Below the pieces are notes generated by a model. That model had not been told where the DNA came from, searched no databases, and was given only the letters and a program-made list of their open reading frames with translations. From Thiohalorhabdus denitrificans (GTDB taxonomy: Bacteria; Pseudomonadota; Gammaproteobacteria; Thiohalorhabdales; Thiohalorhabdaceae), in assembly GCF_001399755.1 (NCBI RefSeq), contig NZ_LJCP01000006.1:248001-312000 (forward strand): a stretch of DNA of 64,000 nt. Reading direction: 5' to 3'. The translations under genes and the position numbers were made by a program. Positions 24,854-36,709 of the stretch are shown here, piece after piece. Each line of letters opens with the position of its first letter. Within the stretch, counting starts at the first letter, position 1.

Positions 24854-26338
24854 ATGAACCGAACCGCAGACACCGCCGAACCCGCCGAGGCCGACCTCCT
24901 CGCCCGCCGCTTCCGGCGCTTCCTGCCGGAGGAGGCGGTGATCACCAGGGAGGAGGAGCTGCGGCCCTACGAGTGCGACGGCCTCTCCGCCTACCGCCAG
25001 CTGCCCATGGTGGTGGTCATTCCCGAGACCTACGAGCAGGTGGCCGGCGTCCTGGCGGTGTGCAGCGAGCTCCGGGTGCCGGTGGTGGCGCGCGGCGCCG
25101 GCACCAGCCTCTCCGGCGGGGCCATGCCCCTGGAGCACGGGGTCCTGCTGTCGCTGGCCAAGTTCAACCGCATCCTGGAGGTGGACCCCGACAACCGCTG
25201 CGCGCGGGTGGAGCCGGGGGTGCGCAACCTGGCCGTGTCCCAGGCCGCCCGGCCCCACGGCCTGTTCTACGCCCCCGACCCCTCGTCGCAGATCGCCTGC
25301 ACCATCGGCGGCAATGTGGCGGAGAACTCCGGCGGTGTCCACTGCCTGAAATACGGCCTGACCGTTCACAACGTCCTCGGCCTCAAGGTCCTGACCATGG
25401 ACGGCGAGTGGCTGGAGCTGGGCGGCAAGGGCCTCGACGGGCCCGGTTACGACCTGCTGGCGCTGATGAACGGTTCCGAGGGCATGCTGGGGCTGGTGAT
25501 GGAGGCCACCGTGCGCTTGACCCCCGTCCCGGAACGGGAGCAGGTGCTGCTGGCCGCCTTCGATGACCTGGGGGCCGCGGGCCAGGCGGTGGCGGACGTG
25601 ATCGCCGAGGGGGTGGTCCCGGCGGGGCTAGAGATGATGGACAACCCGGCCATCCGCGCCGCCGAGGACTACGTCCACGCCGGCTACCCCACGGACGCCG
25701 CCGCCATCCTGCTGTGCGAGCTGGACGGCACCAACCGCGAGGTCTCCGAGGAGCTGGCCCGGGTGCGGAACCTGCTGCTCCGCGCCGGGGCCACCGAGGT
25801 GCGCACCGCCGAGACCGCGGAGGAGGCGGCCACCTTCTGGTCGGGGCGCAAGGCGGCCTTCCCCGCCACCGGCCGCCTGGCCCCCGACTACTACTGCATC
25901 GACGGCACCATCCCGCGCAAGCATCTGGGCGAGGTGCTCGCCCGCATCGGCGAGATCTGCGCCGAGCATGGCCTGCAGTCGGCCAACGTCTTCCACGCCG
26001 GCGACGGCAACCTCCATCCCCTGGTGCTGTACGACGCCAACAAGGAGGGCGACCTGGAGCGCGCCGAGGCGGCGGGTCTGCGCATCCTGGAGCTGTGCGT
26101 GGAGAAGGGCGGCACCATCACCGGCGAGCACGGCGTGGGCGTGGAGAAGCTCGACGCCATGTGCAGCCAGTTCGCCGGCCCGGAGCTCGCCCAGTTCCAC
26201 GCCGTGAAGGCGGCCTTCGACCCGGAGGGCCTGCTCAATCCCGGCAAGGCGGTGCCGACGCTCAAGCGCTGCGCCGAGTACGGCGGTATGCACGTCCACC
26301 ACGGCGAGCTGCCCTTCCCCGACCTGCCGCGGTTCTGA
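24854..26338 (+). CDS. glcD: Glycolate oxidase FAD subunit GlcD
   Basis: FAD-linked subunit that oxidises glycolate to glyoxylate. It has 494 residues: an N-terminal PCMH-type FAD domain (VPVVARGAGTSLSGGAMPL near residues 75-95, and IACTIGGNVAENSGG) and a C-terminal cap domain with GDGNLHP and GTITGEHGVG. It is followed three bases after its stop by glcE and then glcF. Substrate supply from Gph and a neighbouring aminotransferase supports glycolate rather than lactate. Confidence 0.93.
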   Translation: MNRTADTAEPAEADLLARRFRRFLPEEAVITREEELRPYECDGLSAYRQLPMVVVIPETYEQVAGVLAVCSELRVPVVARGAGTSLSGGAMPLEHGVLLSLAKFNRILEVDPDNRCARVEPGVRNLAVSQAARPHGLFYAPDPSSQIACTIGGNVAENSGGVHCLKYGLTVHNVLGLKVLTMDGEWLELGGKGLDGPGYDLLALMNGSEGMLGLVMEATVRLTPVPEREQVLLAAFDDLGAAGQAVADVIAEGVVPAGLEMMDNPAIRAAEDYVHAGYPTDAAAILLCELDGTNREVSEELARVRNLLLRAGATEVRTAETAEEAATFWSGRKAAFPATGRLAPDYYCIDGTIPRKHLGEVLARIGEICAEHGLQSANVFHAGDGNLHPLVLYDANKEGDLERAEAAGLRILELCVEKGGTITGEHGVGVEKLDAMCSQFAGPELAQFHAVKAAFDPEGLLNPGKAVPTLKRCAEYGGMHVHHGELPFPDLPRF

Positions 26339-26341
26339 GAA

Positions 26342-27415
26342 ATGCCCGAGATCCCCGAGAACGACCGCACCGAAGCGCTCCAGGCGGAGGTGCGTGCCGC
26401 CCTCGCCGACGGCGAGCCCCTGGCCGTCCGCGGCGGCGGCACCAAGCAATTCTACGGCCGGGAGGTGGACGGCCGGCCCCTGAATGTGAGCGGTCACTCC
26501 GGGGTGGTGAGCTACGAGCCCACGGAGCTGGTGGTAACGGCGCGGGCGGGGACGCGCCTCGCGGAGCTGGAGGCCCTCCTGGCCGAGCACGGGCAGCAGC
26601 TGGCCTGCGAGCCCCCCCATTTCGGGGCCGAGGCCACGGTGGGCGGCATGGTGGCGGCGGGACTGGCCGGGCCCCGCCGACCCTGGGGCGGGGCGGTGCG
26701 GGATGCCGTGCTCGGCGCCAAGGTTCTGAACGGAGCCGGCGAGGTGCTGTCCTTTGGGGGGGAGGTGATGAAGAACGTGGCCGGCTACGACCTCTCCCGC
26801 CTCCTGGTCGGCTCCCTGGGTACCCTGGGCGTGCTCCTGGAGGTGTCCCTCAAGGTCCTGCCGCGGCCGGCCGCGGAGCGCACCCGGGTGCTGGAGGTGG
26901 ACGCCGGCACGGCTCTGGCGCGGCTGGCCCGGTGGGGCCGGCAGCCCCTGCCCATCACCGGGGCCGCCCACCTGGACGGCCGCCTCCATGTCCGCCTGGC
27001 GGGCAACGAGGCGGCGGTGGCGGAGGCCGGCGAGCGCCTCGGCGGCGAGGAGCCGGCGGGCGGTCCGGAATTCTGGGCGGACCTGCGCGAGCAGCGCCTG
27101 GAGTTCTTCGCCGGCGAGGCGCCCCTGTGGCGGCTGAGCGTGCCACCCGCCGCGCCGCCCCTGGACCACGATGGCTCCCAGCTCATCGACTGGGGCGGCG
27201 CCCAGCGTTGGCTGCGCGGCGACGCCCCGGCCGAGGCGGTGCGGGCGGCCGCGGCGGAGGCGGGCGGCCACGCCACCCTGTTCCGCGGCGGCGACCGCAC
27301 CGGGGAGGTGTTCCATCCCCTGCCCGGTGCCCTGCTGAGCGTCCACAGGAACCTCAAACGGGCCCTGGACCCCCATGGGCTTTTCCATCCCGGCCGGATG
27401 TACGGGGCACTCTAG
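26342..27415 (+). CDS. glcE: Glycolate oxidase FAD subunit GlcE
   Basis: Second FAD-binding subunit of the glycolate oxidase complex, 357 residues, shorter than GlcD. The FAD domain is recognisable from VRGGGTKQFYG, TVGGMVAAGLAGPRR and VMKNVAGYDLSRLL. It starts three bases after the glcD stop and ends two bases before glcF, so the three are one translational unit. The C-terminal HPxGLFHPGRMYG-type ending is typical of GlcE. Confidence 0.93.
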   Translation: MPEIPENDRTEALQAEVRAALADGEPLAVRGGGTKQFYGREVDGRPLNVSGHSGVVSYEPTELVVTARAGTRLAELEALLAEHGQQLACEPPHFGAEATVGGMVAAGLAGPRRPWGGAVRDAVLGAKVLNGAGEVLSFGGEVMKNVAGYDLSRLLVGSLGTLGVLLEVSLKVLPRPAAERTRVLEVDAGTALARLARWGRQPLPITGAAHLDGRLHVRLAGNEAAVAEAGERLGGEEPAGGPEFWADLREQRLEFFAGEAPLWRLSVPPAAPPLDHDGSQLIDWGGAQRWLRGDAPAEAVRAAAAEAGGHATLFRGGDRTGEVFHPLPGALLSVHRNLKRALDPHGLFHPGRMYGAL

Positions 27416-27417
27416 CC

Positions 27418-28641
27418 ATGCAGACCAACCTGCTCCAAGAGCTGCAGGCCACCCCGGAAGGGGCGGAGGCGGAGCGCATCCTGCGCAACTGCGTGCACTG
27501 CGGCTTCTGCAACGCCACCTGCCCTACCTACCAGCTCCTCGGCGACGAGCTAGACGGCCCGCGCGGCCGCATCTACCTGATGAAGGACATGCTCGAGGGC
27601 GGCGAGGTGAGCCGGCACACCCAGCGCCACCTCGACCGCTGCCTCACCTGCCGCAACTGCGAGACCACCTGCCCATCCGGGGTGGAGTACGGCAAGCTGG
27701 TGGACATCGGCCGCGAGCTGGTGGAGGAGCGGGTGCGGCGCCCCTGGCGCGAGCGCCTGTTCCGCGGCCTGCTGCGCCGCGTGCTGCCCGAGCCGGGCCG
27801 GTTCGCGCCCTTGCTGGGCGCCGGCCGGGCGGCCCGGCCGCTGCTGCCCGCCGGCCTGAAGGCCAAGGTTCCCGAGAAACCGGCGGTCCCCGCCTGGCCG
27901 GAGCCCCGCCACCCCCGGCGCATGGTGGTGCTGGAGGGCTGCGTCCAGCCCGCCCTGTCGCCGCAGATCAACGCCCACGCCGCCCGGATCCTGGACCGCC
28001 TGGGCATCTCCCTGGTGACGGCGCCGGGCGCGGGCTGCTGCGGGGCCGTGGACCAGCATCTGGGCGCGCCGGAGGCGGCGGCGGAGCGCATGCGCGCCAA
28101 CATCGACGCCTGGTGGCCCCACATCGAGGCCGGGGCCGAGGCGGTGGTCATGACCGCCAGCGGCTGCGGGGCCCTGGTGCGGGAATACGCCCACCACCTG
28201 CGCGACGATCCGGACTACGCCGAGCGCGCCGCCCGCATCAGCGCCCTGACCCGCGACCTCGGCGAGGTTCTGGCCGCGGAGGACCTGGCCCCCCTCCGTC
28301 CGGAGCGGCCACCCCGGGTCGCCTTCCAATCCCCCTGCACCCTCCAGCACGCCCAGGGCCTGAACGGCGTGGTGGAGGACGTCCTGCGCCGGCTCGGGCT
28401 GGAGCTGACGCCGGTGGCCGAGCCCCACCTCTGCTGCGGGTCGGCGGGCACCTACTCCCTCCTCCAGCCGGAGCTGGCCGCCTCCCTGCGGGATCGCAAG
28501 CTGGCCAACCTGGGCGCGGGGGAGCCGGAGGCCATCGCCACCGCCAACATCGGCTGCCTGCACCATCTGGACGCGGCGAGCCCGGTCCCCGTCCGGCACT
28601 GGGCCGAGCTGCTGGACACCTCCCTCCCCCCGACCGCCTGA
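27418..28641 (+). CDS. glcF: Glycolate oxidase iron-sulfur subunit GlcF
   Basis: Carries electrons from the flavin subunits to the membrane quinone pool. It has 407 residues. Two [4Fe-4S] motifs are C25/C28/C31/C35 (CVHCGFCNATCP) and C75/C78/C81/C85 (CLTCRNCETTCP). Two CCG-type domains follow (GAGCCGAVDQH and HLCCGSAGTY). The frame is open far upstream, but ATG 27418 directly follows the glcE stop and starts the conserved protein. It ends the glcDEF operon; no terminator is evident before the rhomboid gene 114 bases on. Confidence 0.94.
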   Translation: MQTNLLQELQATPEGAEAERILRNCVHCGFCNATCPTYQLLGDELDGPRGRIYLMKDMLEGGEVSRHTQRHLDRCLTCRNCETTCPSGVEYGKLVDIGRELVEERVRRPWRERLFRGLLRRVLPEPGRFAPLLGAGRAARPLLPAGLKAKVPEKPAVPAWPEPRHPRRMVVLEGCVQPALSPQINAHAARILDRLGISLVTAPGAGCCGAVDQHLGAPEAAAERMRANIDAWWPHIEAGAEAVVMTASGCGALVREYAHHLRDDPDYAERAARISALTRDLGEVLAAEDLAPLRPERPPRVAFQSPCTLQHAQGLNGVVEDVLRRLGLELTPVAEPHLCCGSAGTYSLLQPELAASLRDRKLANLGAGEPEAIATANIGCLHHLDAASPVPVRHWAELLDTSLPPTA

Positions 28642-28755: not shown

Positions 28756-30246
28756 ATGCTGTTCCTGCCATTGGCCCGCAAGCCGGACTGGCGGCACCCG
28801 CCGGTGGTCACCCTGCTGCTGGTGGCCGTGAACGTGGCGGTGTTCTTCCTGCTGCAGACCGACGACCACCGCCAATACCACGCGGCGCAGGAGTTCTACC
28901 TGGGCTCGCCGCTTCCGGAACTCGAGTTGCCCCGCTACGCCGAATTCCTCAAGGAGCAGGGCCGCTACGGCCGCGCCCGCGAGGTACGCGAGGCCGTGGA
29001 GGAAGGTCGGGAGGCCCGGGCCTGGGCGCTCTGGGAGCTGCAGGGCGACGGGCGCTTCCTGGAGCGGCTGCACGGCGGAGGGGTGGTGCGGCCGGAGGAT
29101 CCGGGGCACGCGGAATGGCGCCGGGCCCGCGCGGAATTCGAGGAGCGCCTGGAGGCGGTGACCGCCCAGCGCTGGGGATTCAAGCCGGCCCAGCCGGCGG
29201 CCGAGGACGCGCTGGTGCACATGTTCCTCCACGGGGGCATCGGCCACCTCGTCGGCAACATGGTGTTCCTGGTGCTGGTGGGCTACGTGGTGGAGGCGGT
29301 GGTGGGCCGCCTGCTCTTCCTCGGGGTCTACCTGCTCGGCGGCCTCCTGGCCACCGCCGCCTTCGCCGCCGTGTACAGCCACAGCGCCGTGCCGCTGGTG
29401 GGCGCCTCCGGGGCCATCTCCGGCCTGATGGGGGCCTACGTGGTGCTGTTCGGCCGGCGTCGCATCCCCTTCTTCTACTCCCTGGGCTTCTACTTCGACT
29501 TCGCCCGGGCGCCCGCCATCCTGCTCCTCCCCGTCTGGGTGGGCCTGGAGGCCTACCAGCTGCTGTTCGGCGGGGTCTCCCAGGTGGCCTACGTGGCCCA
29601 TATCGGCGGTCTGGTGGGCGGGGCCCTGCTGGGGGCGGTCCTGCACGGCACCGGGCGGGTGGACCTGGAGTTCCTCGATCGCGACGAGCAGGAGGAGCGG
29701 GATACGGCGGACCTTGAGCAGGGCCTGGAGCACCTGGGCAAGCTGGAGCTGGACGCCGCGCGGGCCTGTTTCGCGGCCCTGCTCGAGCGCCGCCCGGGCC
29801 ACCGGGAGGCCCTGGCCAAGCTCTACACGGTGGCCCGGTACCAGCCGCACAGCGAGGAATACCACCAGATGGCCCACCGGATCTTCGCGCTGCCCGAGAA
29901 CGACCCGGCCACCCTGCGCTTCAAGCGGGAGACCTTCCGGGATTACGTGGCCACGGCCAAGCCGCGGACCCGTTTCGACCCTGGGCAGTTCGTGGAGCTC
30001 GCCAGCCGCTTCGCCACCGGCGGTTACCCGGAGGAGGCGGTGCCCATGGTCGACGCCCTGCTGCGGCAGGGAAGGGTGCACCCCCGCCTGCCCCGGATGC
30101 TGGTGGTGGTGGCCCGGGCCCTGACGCGCGAGGGGCAACGCGAGCGTGCCCGGGGGTATCTCCAGGCCCTGGTGGAGCGCTTTCCCGATTCCGAGGAGGC
30201 CCTGGAGGCGCAGGAGCTACTGGGGCACCCGGACCCCGCCGGCTAG
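28756..30246 (+). CDS. Rhomboid-family membrane protein with C-terminal helical-repeat module
   Basis: A 496-residue protein. One TM segment (residues 16-34) is followed by a charged insert (35-145) and a rhomboid core with H159, H164, N168, the catalytic S218 in GASGAISGLMGAY and H282 in AHIGGLVGG, so an active serine protease is likely. From about residue 310 a soluble helical, TPR-like module follows. That module aligns with the C-termini of the next two genes (FxPxxxxxLA...RxALxLx and FPxxxxAxEAxxLL). AGGGGA precedes ATG 28756. Its 3' end overlaps the convergent gene by four bases. Rhomboid identity is secure; substrate is unknown. Confidence 0.87.
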   Translation: MLFLPLARKPDWRHPPVVTLLLVAVNVAVFFLLQTDDHRQYHAAQEFYLGSPLPELELPRYAEFLKEQGRYGRAREVREAVEEGREARAWALWELQGDGRFLERLHGGGVVRPEDPGHAEWRRARAEFEERLEAVTAQRWGFKPAQPAAEDALVHMFLHGGIGHLVGNMVFLVLVGYVVEAVVGRLLFLGVYLLGGLLATAAFAAVYSHSAVPLVGASGAISGLMGAYVVLFGRRRIPFFYSLGFYFDFARAPAILLLPVWVGLEAYQLLFGGVSQVAYVAHIGGLVGGALLGAVLHGTGRVDLEFLDRDEQEERDTADLEQGLEHLGKLELDAARACFAALLERRPGHREALAKLYTVARYQPHSEEYHQMAHRIFALPENDPATLRFKRETFRDYVATAKPRTRFDPGQFVELASRFATGGYPEEAVPMVDALLRQGRVHPRLPRMLVVVARALTREGQRERARGYLQALVERFPDSEEALEAQELLGHPDPAG

Positions 30247-31706
30247 GACCCGGCCCCGGAAGCCGGCTCCGGGGTTCCGATGGCCCGGAGGAGGTGGCGG
30301 GCCTCGGCGGCGGCGGGATCCTCGGGGAAGTGGCGCAGCACGCTCTCCAGCAGAGGACGGGCCTTGGCGTTTTGGTTCAGGTCCTCGGACAGGATCCGGG
30401 CGGCGAGCATGGTGAGGGCGGGCAGATCGGGGTGCCCGGGGTGGGCCTTCCCGAACCCGTTCATGAGCCGCAGGGCCAGGTGGGGCTGCCCTCCCTCGCG
30501 GGCCGCACGGGCCAGGGGCAGGATCTGCTCGGGCTTGGCCGGGCGAAAGCCGGGTTCCCGCTCCAGGGCCTCCGCCACCACCCGCATGGCCGGCCCCGCC
30601 CTGCGCTCCAGCAGCAGGGCCGAGATGTAGTCCTTGCTCTCCTCCACCAGGCGCCCGTCGTCCCCGCCCGCCTGCAGCACCCGGTAGTAGCGCTGCCAGG
30701 CCTCCAGGTCCGTGGGCTGTTGGTCGATGCGCTTGCGCAGCAGCTCCTCGGCCCGCCCCAGCTCGCCCTCCTTCAGCAGCACGTCCACCTGCCCCAACAG
30801 CTCGTCGGTGCCGCCGGGCAGCGCCGGACGCGCCTCCCCGCCCGACTCGTCGGCGCGCACGTCCACCTCGTAGCCGAGCTCCTCGTGGTACTGGTAGATC
30901 ACGTAGCCCAGGAGGTGGAAGGTCACCAGATGCATGTAGCTCCAGCCGAAGGCGATGGCCGCCGGGGCGGCCCAGGAGGGGGCCAGGGCGGCGAGGAGCA
31001 CCGCCAGCTGGGTACCGGCCCCCGACAGCAGCTGCATGAACAGGAACAGAAGCAGGTAGGCCGGGCCGATCCGCACGGCGAGCGCCACCAGGGACACGGG
31101 GTTCAGGGCCCGCAGCAGGATGCGCAGCAGACCCTGCTCCAGGCCGACGAACAGGATGCTCGCCGGCAGCATGAGGCTGAAGAACAGGCTGGCGGCGAGA
31201 TAGCCGACGAAGCCCAGGTACCCGCCGGCCAGGACCGAGAGGAGGAACGTCGCGGCATAGACCGCCCCCAGGGCCAGCACCCGCGGCATGGTGTCCTCTT
31301 CGTTCCGGCTCACGGAGACCGCGGGCGGCTCCATGTGGCCGTCCGCCGTATGGGCCAGGACCCGGAAGCTGTACTGGAGTACGGCCAGCCCCACCAGGAG
31401 CGGCACGGCAAGCCCCACGAGCGGAAAGGCGGTGGCCAGGGCCAGCAGAGCCAGCCCCAGCAGGTAGGTCAGGGGGGTGGAGTGCAGGGGATAGGCGAAA
31501 ATGCGCGGCAGGCGCCGCCAGAAGGGCACGATGACGTTGCCCAGGCCCAGGGACCGCGCCGGGCGCTCGCACAGGGGACAATCCGGGGCTTCCTGGAGGG
31601 GGGCGGGGGGCCGGCGCACGCATCCCGGACACAGAGACACCTCGCAGCGGGGACAGTGCCAGCGGGCGGCGGTACGTGGATGGTACTTGCATGAAATGCG
31701 CTGCAT
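30243..31706 (-). CDS. Zinc-finger membrane protein with C-terminal helical-repeat module (paralogue 1)
   Basis: A 487-residue protein of unrecognised function. The N-terminus is a B-box-like zinc finger (C6, H9, C18, C21, C26, C29, then CPLC). About six TM segments span residues 60-285, and a soluble helical module covers roughly 315-487. The module matches the ends of the rhomboid and of the next gene. ATG 31706 is chosen because GGAGGGGG stands just upstream; an earlier ATG at 31751 lacks a site. It may act with the convergent rhomboid protein, but nothing shows this directly. Confidence 0.8.
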   Translation of the reverse strand: MQRISCKYHPRTAARWHCPRCEVSLCPGCVRRPPAPLQEAPDCPLCERPARSLGLGNVIVPFWRRLPRIFAYPLHSTPLTYLLGLALLALATAFPLVGLAVPLLVGLAVLQYSFRVLAHTADGHMEPPAVSVSRNEEDTMPRVLALGAVYAATFLLSVLAGGYLGFVGYLAASLFFSLMLPASILFVGLEQGLLRILLRALNPVSLVALAVRIGPAYLLLFLFMQLLSGAGTQLAVLLAALAPSWAAPAAIAFGWSYMHLVTFHLLGYVIYQYHEELGYEVDVRADESGGEARPALPGGTDELLGQVDVLLKEGELGRAEELLRKRIDQQPTDLEAWQRYYRVLQAGGDDGRLVEESKDYISALLLERRAGPAMRVVAEALEREPGFRPAKPEQILPLARAAREGGQPHLALRLMNGFGKAHPGHPDLPALTMLAARILSEDLNQNAKARPLLESVLRHFPEDPAAAEARHLLRAIGTPEPASGAGS

Positions 31707-31851
31707 GGCCCCCTCCTGATGCCCAATTTTGGACATTTGTCCCAGAACCAAGCATACGGTCGGTCAAAACGGTCCGCAACGAATCCGGCCCCCCGCTTCC
31801 GCGGTAGGCCGGGACCGTGTCCCGGAGGCAGAGGCGCCCGGCGTATGTGGG

Positions 31852-33255
31852 TTAGGAGGCCTGGTCGAGGTCGGCGAGCATCTTGCGGGCCTCGGCGGAG
31901 GCGGGGTGGTCCGGGAAGAGCCGGAGGAGGTGGTCCAGGGTCTGGCGGGCCTGCTCCGTCTGGCGGAAGTCCTCCCGGAGGATGCGGGCGGACAGCAGAA
32001 AGACCAGGGGAGTATCGGAATGGTCGGGGTGGTGGTGGCTGAAGCGGTTCATCAGGCGCAGGGCCAGGCGGGGCCGTCCCGCCCGCCGGGCGGCCAAGGC
32101 CAGGCGGCGGATCTGCTCGGGACGGGCGGGCCGGAATGCCTCGTCCACGTTGAGGGCGTCCTGGGCAACCTCCAGGGCCCGTTCCTCCTGCCCCGCCCCA
32201 AGCAGGGTGGTGATGAAGGCCCGGCTCCCGGCCAGGAAGGGTTTGTCGTCCTCCCGGGCACGCAGCACCTCGTAGAGCTGCTCCCAGCGGTTCAGGTCGG
32301 TGGGGTGGTCGGCGACCTCCGCGCGCAGGAGCTCCGTCGCTTCGGCGAGCCGCTCCTCCCGTACCAGCTTTGTGATCCGCTCGCGGCGGGAAGGCTCGGG
32401 CTTTTTCGGGGGGCGGGCCGGCTGTTTGGGTCGCTGGCGGGTGACGTACCCGAGCTCCCGGTGGTGGGGGGCGGCCAGCTCCCCCGCCGTCCGGAAGGTG
32501 AAGATCAGCGAATAGGCAGCCAGGGAGGTGGCCAGGGCGAGGAGGCCCCAGAGGGGGATCCGCCCTGACAGCAGCACGACGGCGAGCCCCGTGGCCCCCG
32601 CCAGGAGCAGGAGGGTAAGCGCCGTCCCCAGGAGCGGGCGGCCTATGGTGCGAATGACCGCCGCCAGGCGCAGGGGATGGAAACCGGCCTCCATGGCCGG
32701 GAACAGGCCTTCCTCCCGCCCGATCACCAGGGCGGTGGCGGGAAGGAGAACCGCCCAGGCCAGGGCCCAGGGCAGGAGCGCCAGCGGACCCACCGCCACC
32801 AGGGACCCCACCCCCAGGGCCCCGTGGGCCATCAGCGCTCCCAGCAGCCCCACCACCCGGACCAGGGTCGGTCCGTGGGGCTGCAGGAAGGAGGGCGCGT
32901 CGGCGGGGTTTCCCCGTGCCGTCCGGTCGAGGACCTGAAAGCCGAAGTGCAGGACCGCCACGGTGACGACCAAGCCCACAAAGATGCCCAGCACGGGCAG
33001 GGCCATGGCCGGCCCCAGTACCCCCGAGGCCGCCAGGAAAGCCAGGGCCCAGCCCCGGAGCGGGTAGAGCGCGGTCCCCGGGTCGGGCGGGAAGTTCCAG
33101 TCCGCGCCCTGTCCCAGCCGCTCGGGCGGCTGGTGGCAGCGCGGGCAGCGGCGGCCGGTCTTCTCGAGGCAGCGTTCACACAGACGCACCCCGCAGGCGG
33201 CGCAGAACCAGTCCGCCGCCTGTCCGGCGTGCGTGGAGCAATGGGTCGAGGTCAT
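31852..33255 (-). CDS. Zinc-finger membrane protein with C-terminal helical-repeat module (paralogue 2)
   Basis: A 467-residue paralogue of the preceding gene. It has the same zinc-finger spacing (C6, H9, C18, C21, C26, C29, then CPRC), about six TM segments (residues 65-260), a basic proline-rich linker with PKQPARPPKKP, and a C-terminal helical module (about 275-467). Closely related stretches are FRPARPEQIRRLALAARRAG here and FRPAKPEQILPLARAAREGG in paralogue 1. It lies 145 bases upstream of that gene on the same strand. The pair probably arose by tandem duplication; function is unknown. Confidence 0.8.
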   Translation of the reverse strand: MTSTHCSTHAGQAADWFCAACGVRLCERCLEKTGRRCPRCHQPPERLGQGADWNFPPDPGTALYPLRGWALAFLAASGVLGPAMALPVLGIFVGLVVTVAVLHFGFQVLDRTARGNPADAPSFLQPHGPTLVRVVGLLGALMAHGALGVGSLVAVGPLALLPWALAWAVLLPATALVIGREEGLFPAMEAGFHPLRLAAVIRTIGRPLLGTALTLLLLAGATGLAVVLLSGRIPLWGLLALATSLAAYSLIFTFRTAGELAAPHHRELGYVTRQRPKQPARPPKKPEPSRRERITKLVREERLAEATELLRAEVADHPTDLNRWEQLYEVLRAREDDKPFLAGSRAFITTLLGAGQEERALEVAQDALNVDEAFRPARPEQIRRLALAARRAGRPRLALRLMNRFSHHHPDHSDTPLVFLLSARILREDFRQTEQARQTLDHLLRLFPDHPASAEARKMLADLDQAS

Positions 33256-33374: not shown

Positions 33375-34115
33375 TCAGACCGGCAGGGCGGTTTCCTCTT
33401 CCGGCTGCCGGGGGTCGTGGTCGGCGTGGGGGAAGATCTCGGTGAAGCTGGCGTAGGCGGCCCCCGCCCCCACTGGCCCGAGGACCAGAAAGCCCAGCCC
33501 GTAGGGGATGGCGGCCACGGCCGCGAGGGCGGCGTAGACCAGACCGAACAGCAGCAGGGGCAGGAGGTTACGGAGGACGGCCCGGAGGCTGGCTCCCAGG
33601 GCCCCGGGGAGGCGGCTGGCCGTGAAGGCCACCAGGGGGGTGGCGAAGTAGAAGGCCGCCGCAGCGCTCAGCCCGAGGAGCAGGATCAGCAGCCCCCCGA
33701 GACCGCTTTCCGCCCAAAAGGGGCCCTGGGCCGGCGGAGCGCTCGGCTCGGGCAGGGTCTCCGCCATGGCGAGGAACAGGCCGGCCAGGAGGAAGGTGGC
33801 GGCGAGGGCCAGGCCCCCCAGGCCCAGCAGGCGGCCCCGGGTGCGGGCGTCGGTGAGCCCCTCGAAGAGGTGGCCCAGCCGCACCGGGTCCCCGCGGGAG
33901 CCGTCCCGCGCGGCGAGCAGCAGGCCGGCCCCGAAGGCCGGGGCCAGTAGCGTGGCCACCAGTCCGCCGAGGACAGGGATGAGGTTCAGGGCCAGGACGA
34001 CGACCACGTAGAGGAGGAACAGGGCGATCCAGGGGCCCGGCTGGGCGCGGAATCCGTTCCAGCCCTGGGCGAACCAGGCGAAGGCCCGGCCGATTCCGAC
34101 ACGTTGGGAATGCAT
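33375..34115 (-). CDS. BPSS1780-type multi-TM membrane protein
   Basis: A 246-residue inner-membrane protein with about six TM segments and the opening AFAWFAQGWNGFRAQPGPWI, typical of the BPSS1780 family (function unknown). ATG 34115 has CAGGAGG upstream and is preferred over 34166. A paralogue with the same WSAFRSAPGPWV opening is at 35978-36709, so two copies flank the isoaspartyl peptidase. It lies 119 bases upstream of zinc-finger paralogue 2 on the same strand and may be co-transcribed with it. Confidence 0.78.
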   Translation of the reverse strand: MHSQRVGIGRAFAWFAQGWNGFRAQPGPWIALFLLYVVVVLALNLIPVLGGLVATLLAPAFGAGLLLAARDGSRGDPVRLGHLFEGLTDARTRGRLLGLGGLALAATFLLAGLFLAMAETLPEPSAPPAQGPFWAESGLGGLLILLLGLSAAAAFYFATPLVAFTASRLPGALGASLRAVLRNLLPLLLFGLVYAALAAVAAIPYGLGFLVLGPVGAGAAYASFTEIFPHADHDPRQPEEETALPV

Positions 34116-34297
34116 GCGGCCTCCTGGGGATGCGTGGAAAGGGCGTCCGACCCGGGGAGCGCACATTATAGGGCGGACCGCCCGGGAGGTCAGCTTGGCC
34201 CCTCAATGGGGTGCACCAGAAGGCCCTTCCCGGGCCGGGAAGGGCCTTACGAACAGGAGGACGCCCCCGTAGCAGGAGGGATATTCCCCCGGTACGG

Positions 34298-35807: not shown

Positions 35808-36023
35808 ATGGGTAGTCCCTGGATCTGGCTCGTCTCGGTAGCCTTCGCCGCGCTGCTGGCCCGGGGGGCCGCCCGCCGGGGCGGGAATCCCGTCCTCTGG
35901 GGCGGTCTGGGATTCTTCTTCGGCCCGCTGCCCCTGCCCTTCCTGCTGCTGGTCCCCGTGCGCCGGCCCGGCCGGGCCTATTCGGCGGACTCCTCCGGGG
36001 GTTCCGGGAAGACCTCCCGGTAG
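35808..36023 (+). CDS. Small hydrophobic protein, 71 residues
   Basis: Predicted two-TM mini-protein (hydrophobic residues 6-20 and 29-50) with a basic loop (RGAARRGGN) and a polar tail. GGGAGGGG stands just before ATG 35808. Its last 46 bases overlap the 3' end of the convergent membrane gene at 35978. The isoaspartyl peptidase starts divergently at 35734. No family is recognised. It could be a real small membrane protein or a chance frame; the ribosome site and membrane pattern favour the former. Confidence 0.55.
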   Translation: MGSPWIWLVSVAFAALLARGAARRGGNPVLWGGLGFFFGPLPLPFLLLVPVRRPGRAYSADSSGGSGKTSR

Positions 36024-36709
36024 GCCCGGTAAGCGGCGGCCATCCCCACCGGCAGGAGGAGGAGGAAGCCCAGTCCCATGGGCAGCACGGCCACGAACCC
36101 CAGGATCAGATAGAGCACCAGGAAGAGCAGTACGGCTCCGAGGTTGCGCAGGCAGGCCCCGAAGCTCTCCCGCATGGCCGCCACCGGGTCCAGGTCCCGG
36201 AAGGTCACCAGGGGAATGGCGAAGAACAGGGCAAAGCTGACCGCCAGCATGACGAGGAGGGTGGCGATCAGGGCCCCCATGGGCGGGGGTCCGCCGGGCA
36301 TGGGCTCGGTGGGGCCGCCGGGCCCCATGCCGCCCCCCGGGGCCACCTCGCCAGGAGCGGTATAGACGAGGATCAGCCCCGCCAACAGGGTGGCGGCCAG
36401 GGCCACGGCGCCCAGCACCAGCAGTGGGCCGCGGCTCTGGGCGTCGCCGAGGGCCTGGAACAGCATGCCCGCCCGGACGTCCGTGCCATCCTCGGCCGCC
36501 CGGGCCATGAGCAGGAACCCCGCCAGCAGGCCGGGCCCGATCACCGCCCCCGCGATGGGCCCGATCAGGGGGATGAAGTTGAGGAGCAGGGTGATGAGCA
36601 GGTAGCCGGCCGCGGCGAGGACCCAAGGGCCCGGTGCGGACCGGAAGGCGGACCAGCCGTCGGCGTACCAGCCGGCCCCCCGGGCCCCAGCAACACGATG
36701 ATTGGCCAT
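35978..36709 (-). CDS. BPSS1780-type multi-TM membrane protein (second copy)
   Basis: A 243-residue paralogue of the gene at 33375-34115. Shared features are the opening GWSAFRSAPGPWVLAA, the IPLIGPIAGAVIGPGLLAGF segment and the closing LPMGLGFLLLLPVGMAAAY. About six TM segments are present, with a Gly/Pro/Met-rich loop (GGGMGPGGPTEPMPGGPPPM) in the middle. AAGGAAGG precedes ATG 36709. Its end overlaps the small gene on the other strand. Function is unknown for the family. Confidence 0.78.
   Translation of the reverse strand: MANHRVAGARGAGWYADGWSAFRSAPGPWVLAAAGYLLITLLLNFIPLIGPIAGAVIGPGLLAGFLLMARAAEDGTDVRAGMLFQALGDAQSRGPLLVLGAVALAATLLAGLILVYTAPGEVAPGGGMGPGGPTEPMPGGPPPMGALIATLLVMLAVSFALFFAIPLVTFRDLDPVAAMRESFGACLRNLGAVLLFLVLYLILGFVAVLPMGLGFLLLLPVGMAAAYRAYREVFPEPPEESAE

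Follow-up and report, generated by a model that had tools for sequence, protein, structure and literature searches.

A TPR-tailed rhomboid protease and a DUF4013-like membrane protein as a genetically associated pair in two bacterial classes

To our knowledge, neither a substrate nor a regulator or pathway has been established for most of the rhomboids of bacteria. Judged by architecture, the nearest known analogue of the rhomboid analyzed here is YqgP (GluP) of Bacillus subtilis, a rhomboid with a C-terminal TPR domain that acts as an FtsH adaptor and cleaves MgtE (Began et al. 2020, PMC7231995). Both are polytopic rhomboids with a C-terminal TPR domain and extramembrane domains beside the catalytic core, and YqgP provides a precedent for a rhomboid working with a partner in membrane-protein quality control. 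The two also differ. The TPR domain of YqgP is described as extracellular, whereas the tail of our rhomboid is predicted to be cytosolic, and YqgP has a large (~177 aa) cytosolic metal-binding N-terminal domain, which our rhomboid lacks, as its TM1 starts at residue 17. Our rhomboid, in turn, differs in its six-TM core, in an extra helical periplasmic L1 domain and in a dedicated DUF4013-like TPR partner, while the part of the YqgP paper considered mentions no DUF4013-type partner.

GlpG and the rhombosortases share the Ser-His dyad with our rhomboid, and GlpG chains in the PDB match it weakly, yet these proteins have neither a TPR tail nor a DUF4013-TPR partner. The corresponding equivalog models, TIGR04239 (GlpG) and TIGR03902 (rhombosortase), scored below their NCBIfam cut-offs (15.8 vs 250 and 16.3 vs 84 bits). 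What distinguishes the partners from DUF4013 proteins (PF13197) is the additional TPR tail and, in many of them, a B-box-like zinc finger. Both tails have their closest counterparts, as far as solved structures and described natural families go, in the TPRs of CpoB/YbgF and BamD. CpoB and BamD are, however, periplasmic proteins, whereas the tails in question are carried by inner-membrane anchors and are predicted to be cytosolic. A further lead, and only a lead, is mycobacterial Rv0110, for which a weak zf-B_box match (E 0.00021) is reported within a rhomboid-containing polypeptide (PMC2989971); in this actinobacterial case the zinc finger is fused in cis, and the part of the paper considered describes no TPR partner. 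Our literature search of open-licence full texts (rhomboid with TPR or zinc finger, DUF4013, YqgP and B-box) revealed no paper on the rhomboid-partner pair, and this conserved two-gene membrane-protease system is apparently undescribed in the searched literature.

The locus lies within a 64-kb stretch of DNA (the window) from a genome of 2.87 Mb, in a class that also includes Thiohalophilus, which makes the source a member of the Gammaproteobacteria as GTDB defines them. Three genes had been predicted here to encode a rhomboid and two zinc-finger membrane paralogues with a common C-terminal module. All three are found exactly at the predicted positions, and the shared motifs quoted in the original prediction are present in their translations. 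The features considered are as follows:

28756..30246, plus strand: predicted rhomboid protease gene, 496 aa, with TM1, L1 domain, TM2-TM6 core and TPR tail
29668..30243, plus strand: TPR tail of the rhomboid, residues 305-496, from the profile-profile match to partner tails
30243..31706, minus strand: zfA, the conserved partner, 487 aa from a likely ATG at 31706 (the ORF is open from 31751)
30246..30866, minus strand: TPR tail of zfA, residues 281-487, from the TPR_14 match and the AlphaFold2 model
30243..30246, no strand: CTAG overlap of the rhomboid and zfA, with both stop codons inside the 4 common bases
31852..33255, minus strand: zfB, 467 aa, a lineage-specific zfA paralogue that shares the zfA architecture
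33375..34166, minus strand: BPSS1780-family membrane protein (NCBIfam NF041043, 4e-44), upstream of zfB and outside the conserved pair
35978..36709, minus strand: second BPSS1780-family membrane protein, likewise upstream of zfB

The rhomboid and zfA genes are thus convergent and overlap by 4 bases at their stop codons, which leaves no space for a terminator between them. The exact 4-base convergent overlap recurs at L054, L056, L069, L077, L078, L112, L113, L115 and L116. This spacing of -4 was seen in many distant genomes and the convergent order is kept in two major groups; without co-transcription, such conservation of both order and overlap is unusual. Upstream of the rhomboid, three genes on the plus strand (24854-28641) resemble, by eye, the glycolate oxidase set glcD/glcE/glcF; such genes were not seen as conserved rhomboid neighbours in the other loci. 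A search for plasmid carriage gave no match.

The rhomboid is a predicted active serine protease with Ser218 and His282 as catalytic residues. Pfam Rhomboid (PF01694) matches it with an E-value of 6e-25 (88.5 bits, against a curated cut-off of 22.6), and the GxSG serine, the TM6 histidine and the HxxxN motif of the oxyanion region are all present. His164, Asn168 and Ser218 are invariant in 73/73 homologues, and His282 is kept in all 72 that cover that position. In residue terms, TM1 (17-34) is followed by the helical L1 domain (~36-147), the TM2-TM6 core that holds Ser218/His282, and a TPR tail (~305-490) with a TPR_14 match (E 7e-08). The AlphaFold2 model (mean pLDDT 94.7) presents six TM helices, an all-helical L1 insertion and a helical tail. 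In rhomboid architecture, L1 and the active site lie outside and six helices place both ends inside; with six modelled TM helices, the tail is therefore predicted to be cytosolic. Loop charges broadly fit the six-TM topology, but the segment after TM6 is acidic. Two rhomboids (L092:2919-4097 and L093:5989-7200) lack the ~110-residue periplasmic L1 domain, with 20 residues left, yet retain both the TPR tail and an adjoining partner gene, which makes the tail the more constant feature. Homologues with short or absent tails mostly run into contig ends. One apparently tail-less long rhomboid (G223:C7:2405-3577) matches the profile only to position 401/491, and its genome has no partner; absence of both is the pattern expected if tail and partner were lost together.

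The partner, zfA, consists of a B-box-like zinc finger (~4-45), a six-helix DUF4013-like membrane domain (~63-272) and a TPR tail (~281-487), in which TPR_14 matches with an E-value of 4e-12 and the AlphaFold2 pLDDT of the repeats is mostly >95. DUF4013 (PF13197), a Pfam family without known function, was matched at E <= 0.01 by 11/54 partner-family members (best 6e-06), zfA not being listed among them. Near-invariant Pro181, Pro203, Gly214 and Gly267 mark the partner membrane domains. The zfA model has six TM helices with cytosolic termini, in broad agreement with loop charges, when the DSSP helix at 134-189 is taken as two TM segments; taken as a single segment, it would turn the tail towards the periplasm. 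As for the zinc finger, both zfA and zfB show the Cys/His pattern, although their zf-B_box (PF00643) scores of 17.6 and 22.5 are below the curated cut-off of 24.1. The finger is present in 32/58 partners and absent in 26/58, so the 'zinc-finger adapter' of the original prediction does not define the partner. What all partners have in common is the TPR tail and a DUF4013-like membrane domain of six helices.

The three C-termini are homologous, colinear TPR tails of ~185-200 residues, and in this respect the predicted common module is confirmed for all three proteins. The zfA and zfB tails share 46% identity along 168 aa (E 4e-39) and the rhomboid and zfA tails 33% along 91 aa (E 5e-10), while the rhomboid-zfB match is weak (27% along 85 aa, E 0.005); in 500 shuffles, none of the three pairwise alignment scores was reached. 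With family profiles built from 47 rhomboids and 54 partners, hhalign placed the rhomboid and partner tails in register across 208 columns (99.1%, E 2e-18), which covers the whole module and supports homology along its full length. This likeness does not, however, exceed that seen among unrelated CpoB/BamD TPRs. When profiles of equal depth, made for CpoB, BamD and LapB of related genomes, were used as controls, rhomboid and partner tails matched with an E-value of 4e-17 (181 columns), the partner tail and CpoB with 1e-16 (122 columns), and CpoB and BamD with 5e-17 (126 columns); LapB comparisons were much weaker. Since control TPRs match equally well, the shared tail is weak evidence when taken alone, and it is the co-occurrence of the genes that carries the case. 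By its sequence profile, the module is a CpoB/BamD-like TPR solenoid rather than a fold unique to the locus. In the structure search, the YbgF TPR domain gave a TM-score of 0.74 by target. Assigning a function by fold was tried and abandoned, as the Foldseek hits of both models in the PDB were for the most part generic TPR proteins, and their TM-scores were low.

Comparison of the tails at the DNA level revealed nothing above chance, so recent copying does not account for their likeness; the same result led us to reject gene conversion, or an inverted duplication, as the origin of the convergent tails. The rhomboid tail of the window scores up to 357 against other rhomboid tails and 120 against the tail of its own zfA. 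With the window left out, tail pairs from the same genome score slightly above mismatched pairs (48.9 vs 43.5, with 0/5000 permutations as high), an excess that may partly be due to composition.

To examine the association of the two genes, the collection was scanned with a three-sequence rhomboid profile, which yielded 80 named loci. The long-form rhomboid (E <1e-50) is present in 72 of these, 7 of which were too near a contig edge to judge, leaving 65 informative loci. A zfA-type gene adjoins the rhomboid in 58 of the 65, with 53 pairs convergent and 5 co-directional (4 with the partner upstream, 1 downstream); convergent pairs are often <=20 bases apart or overlapping. As most pairs are convergent and do not form an operon, the arrangement does not imply co-expression. 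In 6 of the seven non-adjacent loci, the partner is found elsewhere in the genome, the seventh being a draft MAG. No third conserved neighbour gene was found, with the largest neighbour clusters reaching 10/80 loci and generic in appearance, such as response regulators.

Among the 369 genomes of the window's class, 31 carry the rhomboid, 31 the partner and 28 both, where ~2.6 would be expected (Fisher 2e-35). By coordinates, the genes are adjacent in 25 of these 28 genomes; in G003, both stop at contig ends. In the deltaproteobacterial class (that of MAG G372; 192 genomes), the rhomboid is found in 24, a partner of full length in 23, and the two together in 22 (Fisher 1e-25), and in 5 of these 22 the two genes lie on different contigs. 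It should be considered that only rhomboid-linked members went into the training of the partner profile, which so favours finding linked ones. Exceptions exist in both directions: a partner without a long rhomboid is found in G001 (a zfB), G182, G341 and G559, and a rhomboid without a partner in G223, G244, G339, G445, G534 and the draft MAG G374. The rhomboid and partner gene trees have their main clades in common, and pairwise distances correlate (Mantel r 0.89, 57 pairs), as joint inheritance would lead one to expect. The co-occurrence anticipated in the original prediction is thus seen in two classes for the rhomboid and the zfA-type gene, and these two are well supported as a genetic association.

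The same cannot be said of zfB. The paralogy of zfA and zfB extends along their full length (35% in BLASTP across 475 aa, E 1e-65). In the partner tree they form a clade of zfA with zfB plus the congener protein (support 100/97), in which the latter two share a long stem (length 1.13 for zfB). The congener G001, which is 99% complete, carries only a zfB orthologue (53% identical), and neither the long rhomboid nor zfA was found in it. Joint absence of the rhomboid and zfA with persistence of zfB is in line with a pairing of these two and speaks against a role of zfB as second adapter of the protease. In G001 (L007), as in the window, zfB adjoins a BPSS1780-family gene, which suggests that zfB now belongs to a unit apart from the rhomboid. 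From these sequence relations, zfB is a lineage-specific, fast-diverging duplicate of the partner, which may now work apart from the protease or may have changed its client. Of the proposed undescribed system, a protease with two zinc-finger adapters, what stands is a conserved pair for which no description was found; the unit is the rhomboid with one partner, whereas zfB, with its long branch, is a duplicate of local origin.

How might the pair work? We give about an even chance to a two-protein intramembrane-protease system of rhomboid and zfA, a candidate complex held by the tails in which the partner recruits or gates substrates. The active site of the rhomboid would face the periplasm, with the helical L1 domain on the same side, while zfA would serve as a dedicated six-helix DUF4013-like partner, in many cases bearing a zinc finger in the cytosol. 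Both proteins would extend homologous TPR tails into the cytosol and could form a complex through them, and the partner may recruit or gate membrane-protein substrates by its membrane domain and, where present, its N-terminal zinc module. Cleavage may serve membrane-protein quality control or regulated release. The most likely role of the partner is that of a regulatory or substrate-presenting subunit, joined to the rhomboid through the cytosolic TPR tails.

Several other readings of the same data need to be considered. The two proteins might instead dock separately, through their like tails, on a third cytosolic protein, such as the AAA+ protease FtsH or a chaperone. Binding to the peptide tails of other proteins is common for TPR domains, and here two unlike membrane anchors carry tails that are homologous and colinear; YqgP passes its substrate to FtsH (PMC7231995). 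However, no third gene is conserved beside the rhomboid-partner pair, and the common docking partner of the original prediction is not needed, as tail-to-tail contact of two proteins is simpler; we regard docking on a third protein as unlikely. Rather unlikely, too, is that the partner is the dedicated substrate of the rhomboid, cut at a periplasm-facing TM segment so that its TPR/zinc-finger module is released or destroyed, the genes being kept as an enzyme-substrate pair. One-to-one co-occurrence, unlinked cases included, would follow from this, rhomboids can cut polytopic proteins (YqgP cuts MgtE between TMH1 and TMH2; PMC7231995), and the near-invariant Pro and Gly residues of the partner membrane domain (Pro181, Pro203, Gly214 and Gly267) would suit a cleaved protein. 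A plain substrate, however, needs no TPR tail homologous to that of its protease, and Pro203 and Gly214 are in a loop assigned as cytosolic rather than periplasmic.

That the main output is not proteolytic, with the rhomboid as a membrane scaffold and the DUF4013-like partner as an effector in, for example, membrane lipid or transport homeostasis, seems improbable to us. Such a role recalls the adaptor function of YqgP, which does not depend on protease activity (PMC7231995), and DUF4013 leaves room for it as a family of unknown function, but every homologue in which these positions are covered keeps the catalytic Ser and His. Least of all do we expect a chance, non-functional neighbourhood, in which the tails were gained independently and adjacency is passive. 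Although the tails are common CpoB-like TPRs and convergent pairs are not transcribed together, an association at p ~1e-35 and ~1e-25 in two classes, in both orientations and persisting where the genes are unlinked, makes this very hard to credit.

Returning to the two-protein protease with paired tails, a broader form of it can be offered more tentatively, somewhat short of an even chance: that the system is a widespread two-subunit intramembrane protease of Pseudomonadota and deltaproteobacterial lineages, in which an obligate DUF4013-TPR subunit controls the rhomboid via paired cytosolic tails and the zinc finger is an interchangeable sensing or docking module. If true, the dedicated subunit would represent a new type of rhomboid partner. 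Since in two large groups this rhomboid subfamily is nearly always passed on together with a single membrane partner, it offers a handle on substrate choice and control, and the DUF4013 membrane domain gains apparently its first strong functional association. The pair is carried by the culturable Marinobacter, Aromatoleum, Comamonas, Methylobacter and Desulfosarcina.

Some loci vary in their zinc modules. In L091:3489-5420, an N-terminal domain and a zinc ribbon are fused to the partner, while in L113:4536-5912 a like domain and zinc ribbon are part of a separate DUF805/glutaredoxin protein beside the rhomboid. This DUF805/glutaredoxin protein adjoins the rhomboid in the Aromatoleum/Pseudothauera loci. 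With the ribbon fused in one case and separate in the other, the zinc module appears interchangeable, and the two arrangements possibly represent a fusion-type link to a third component.
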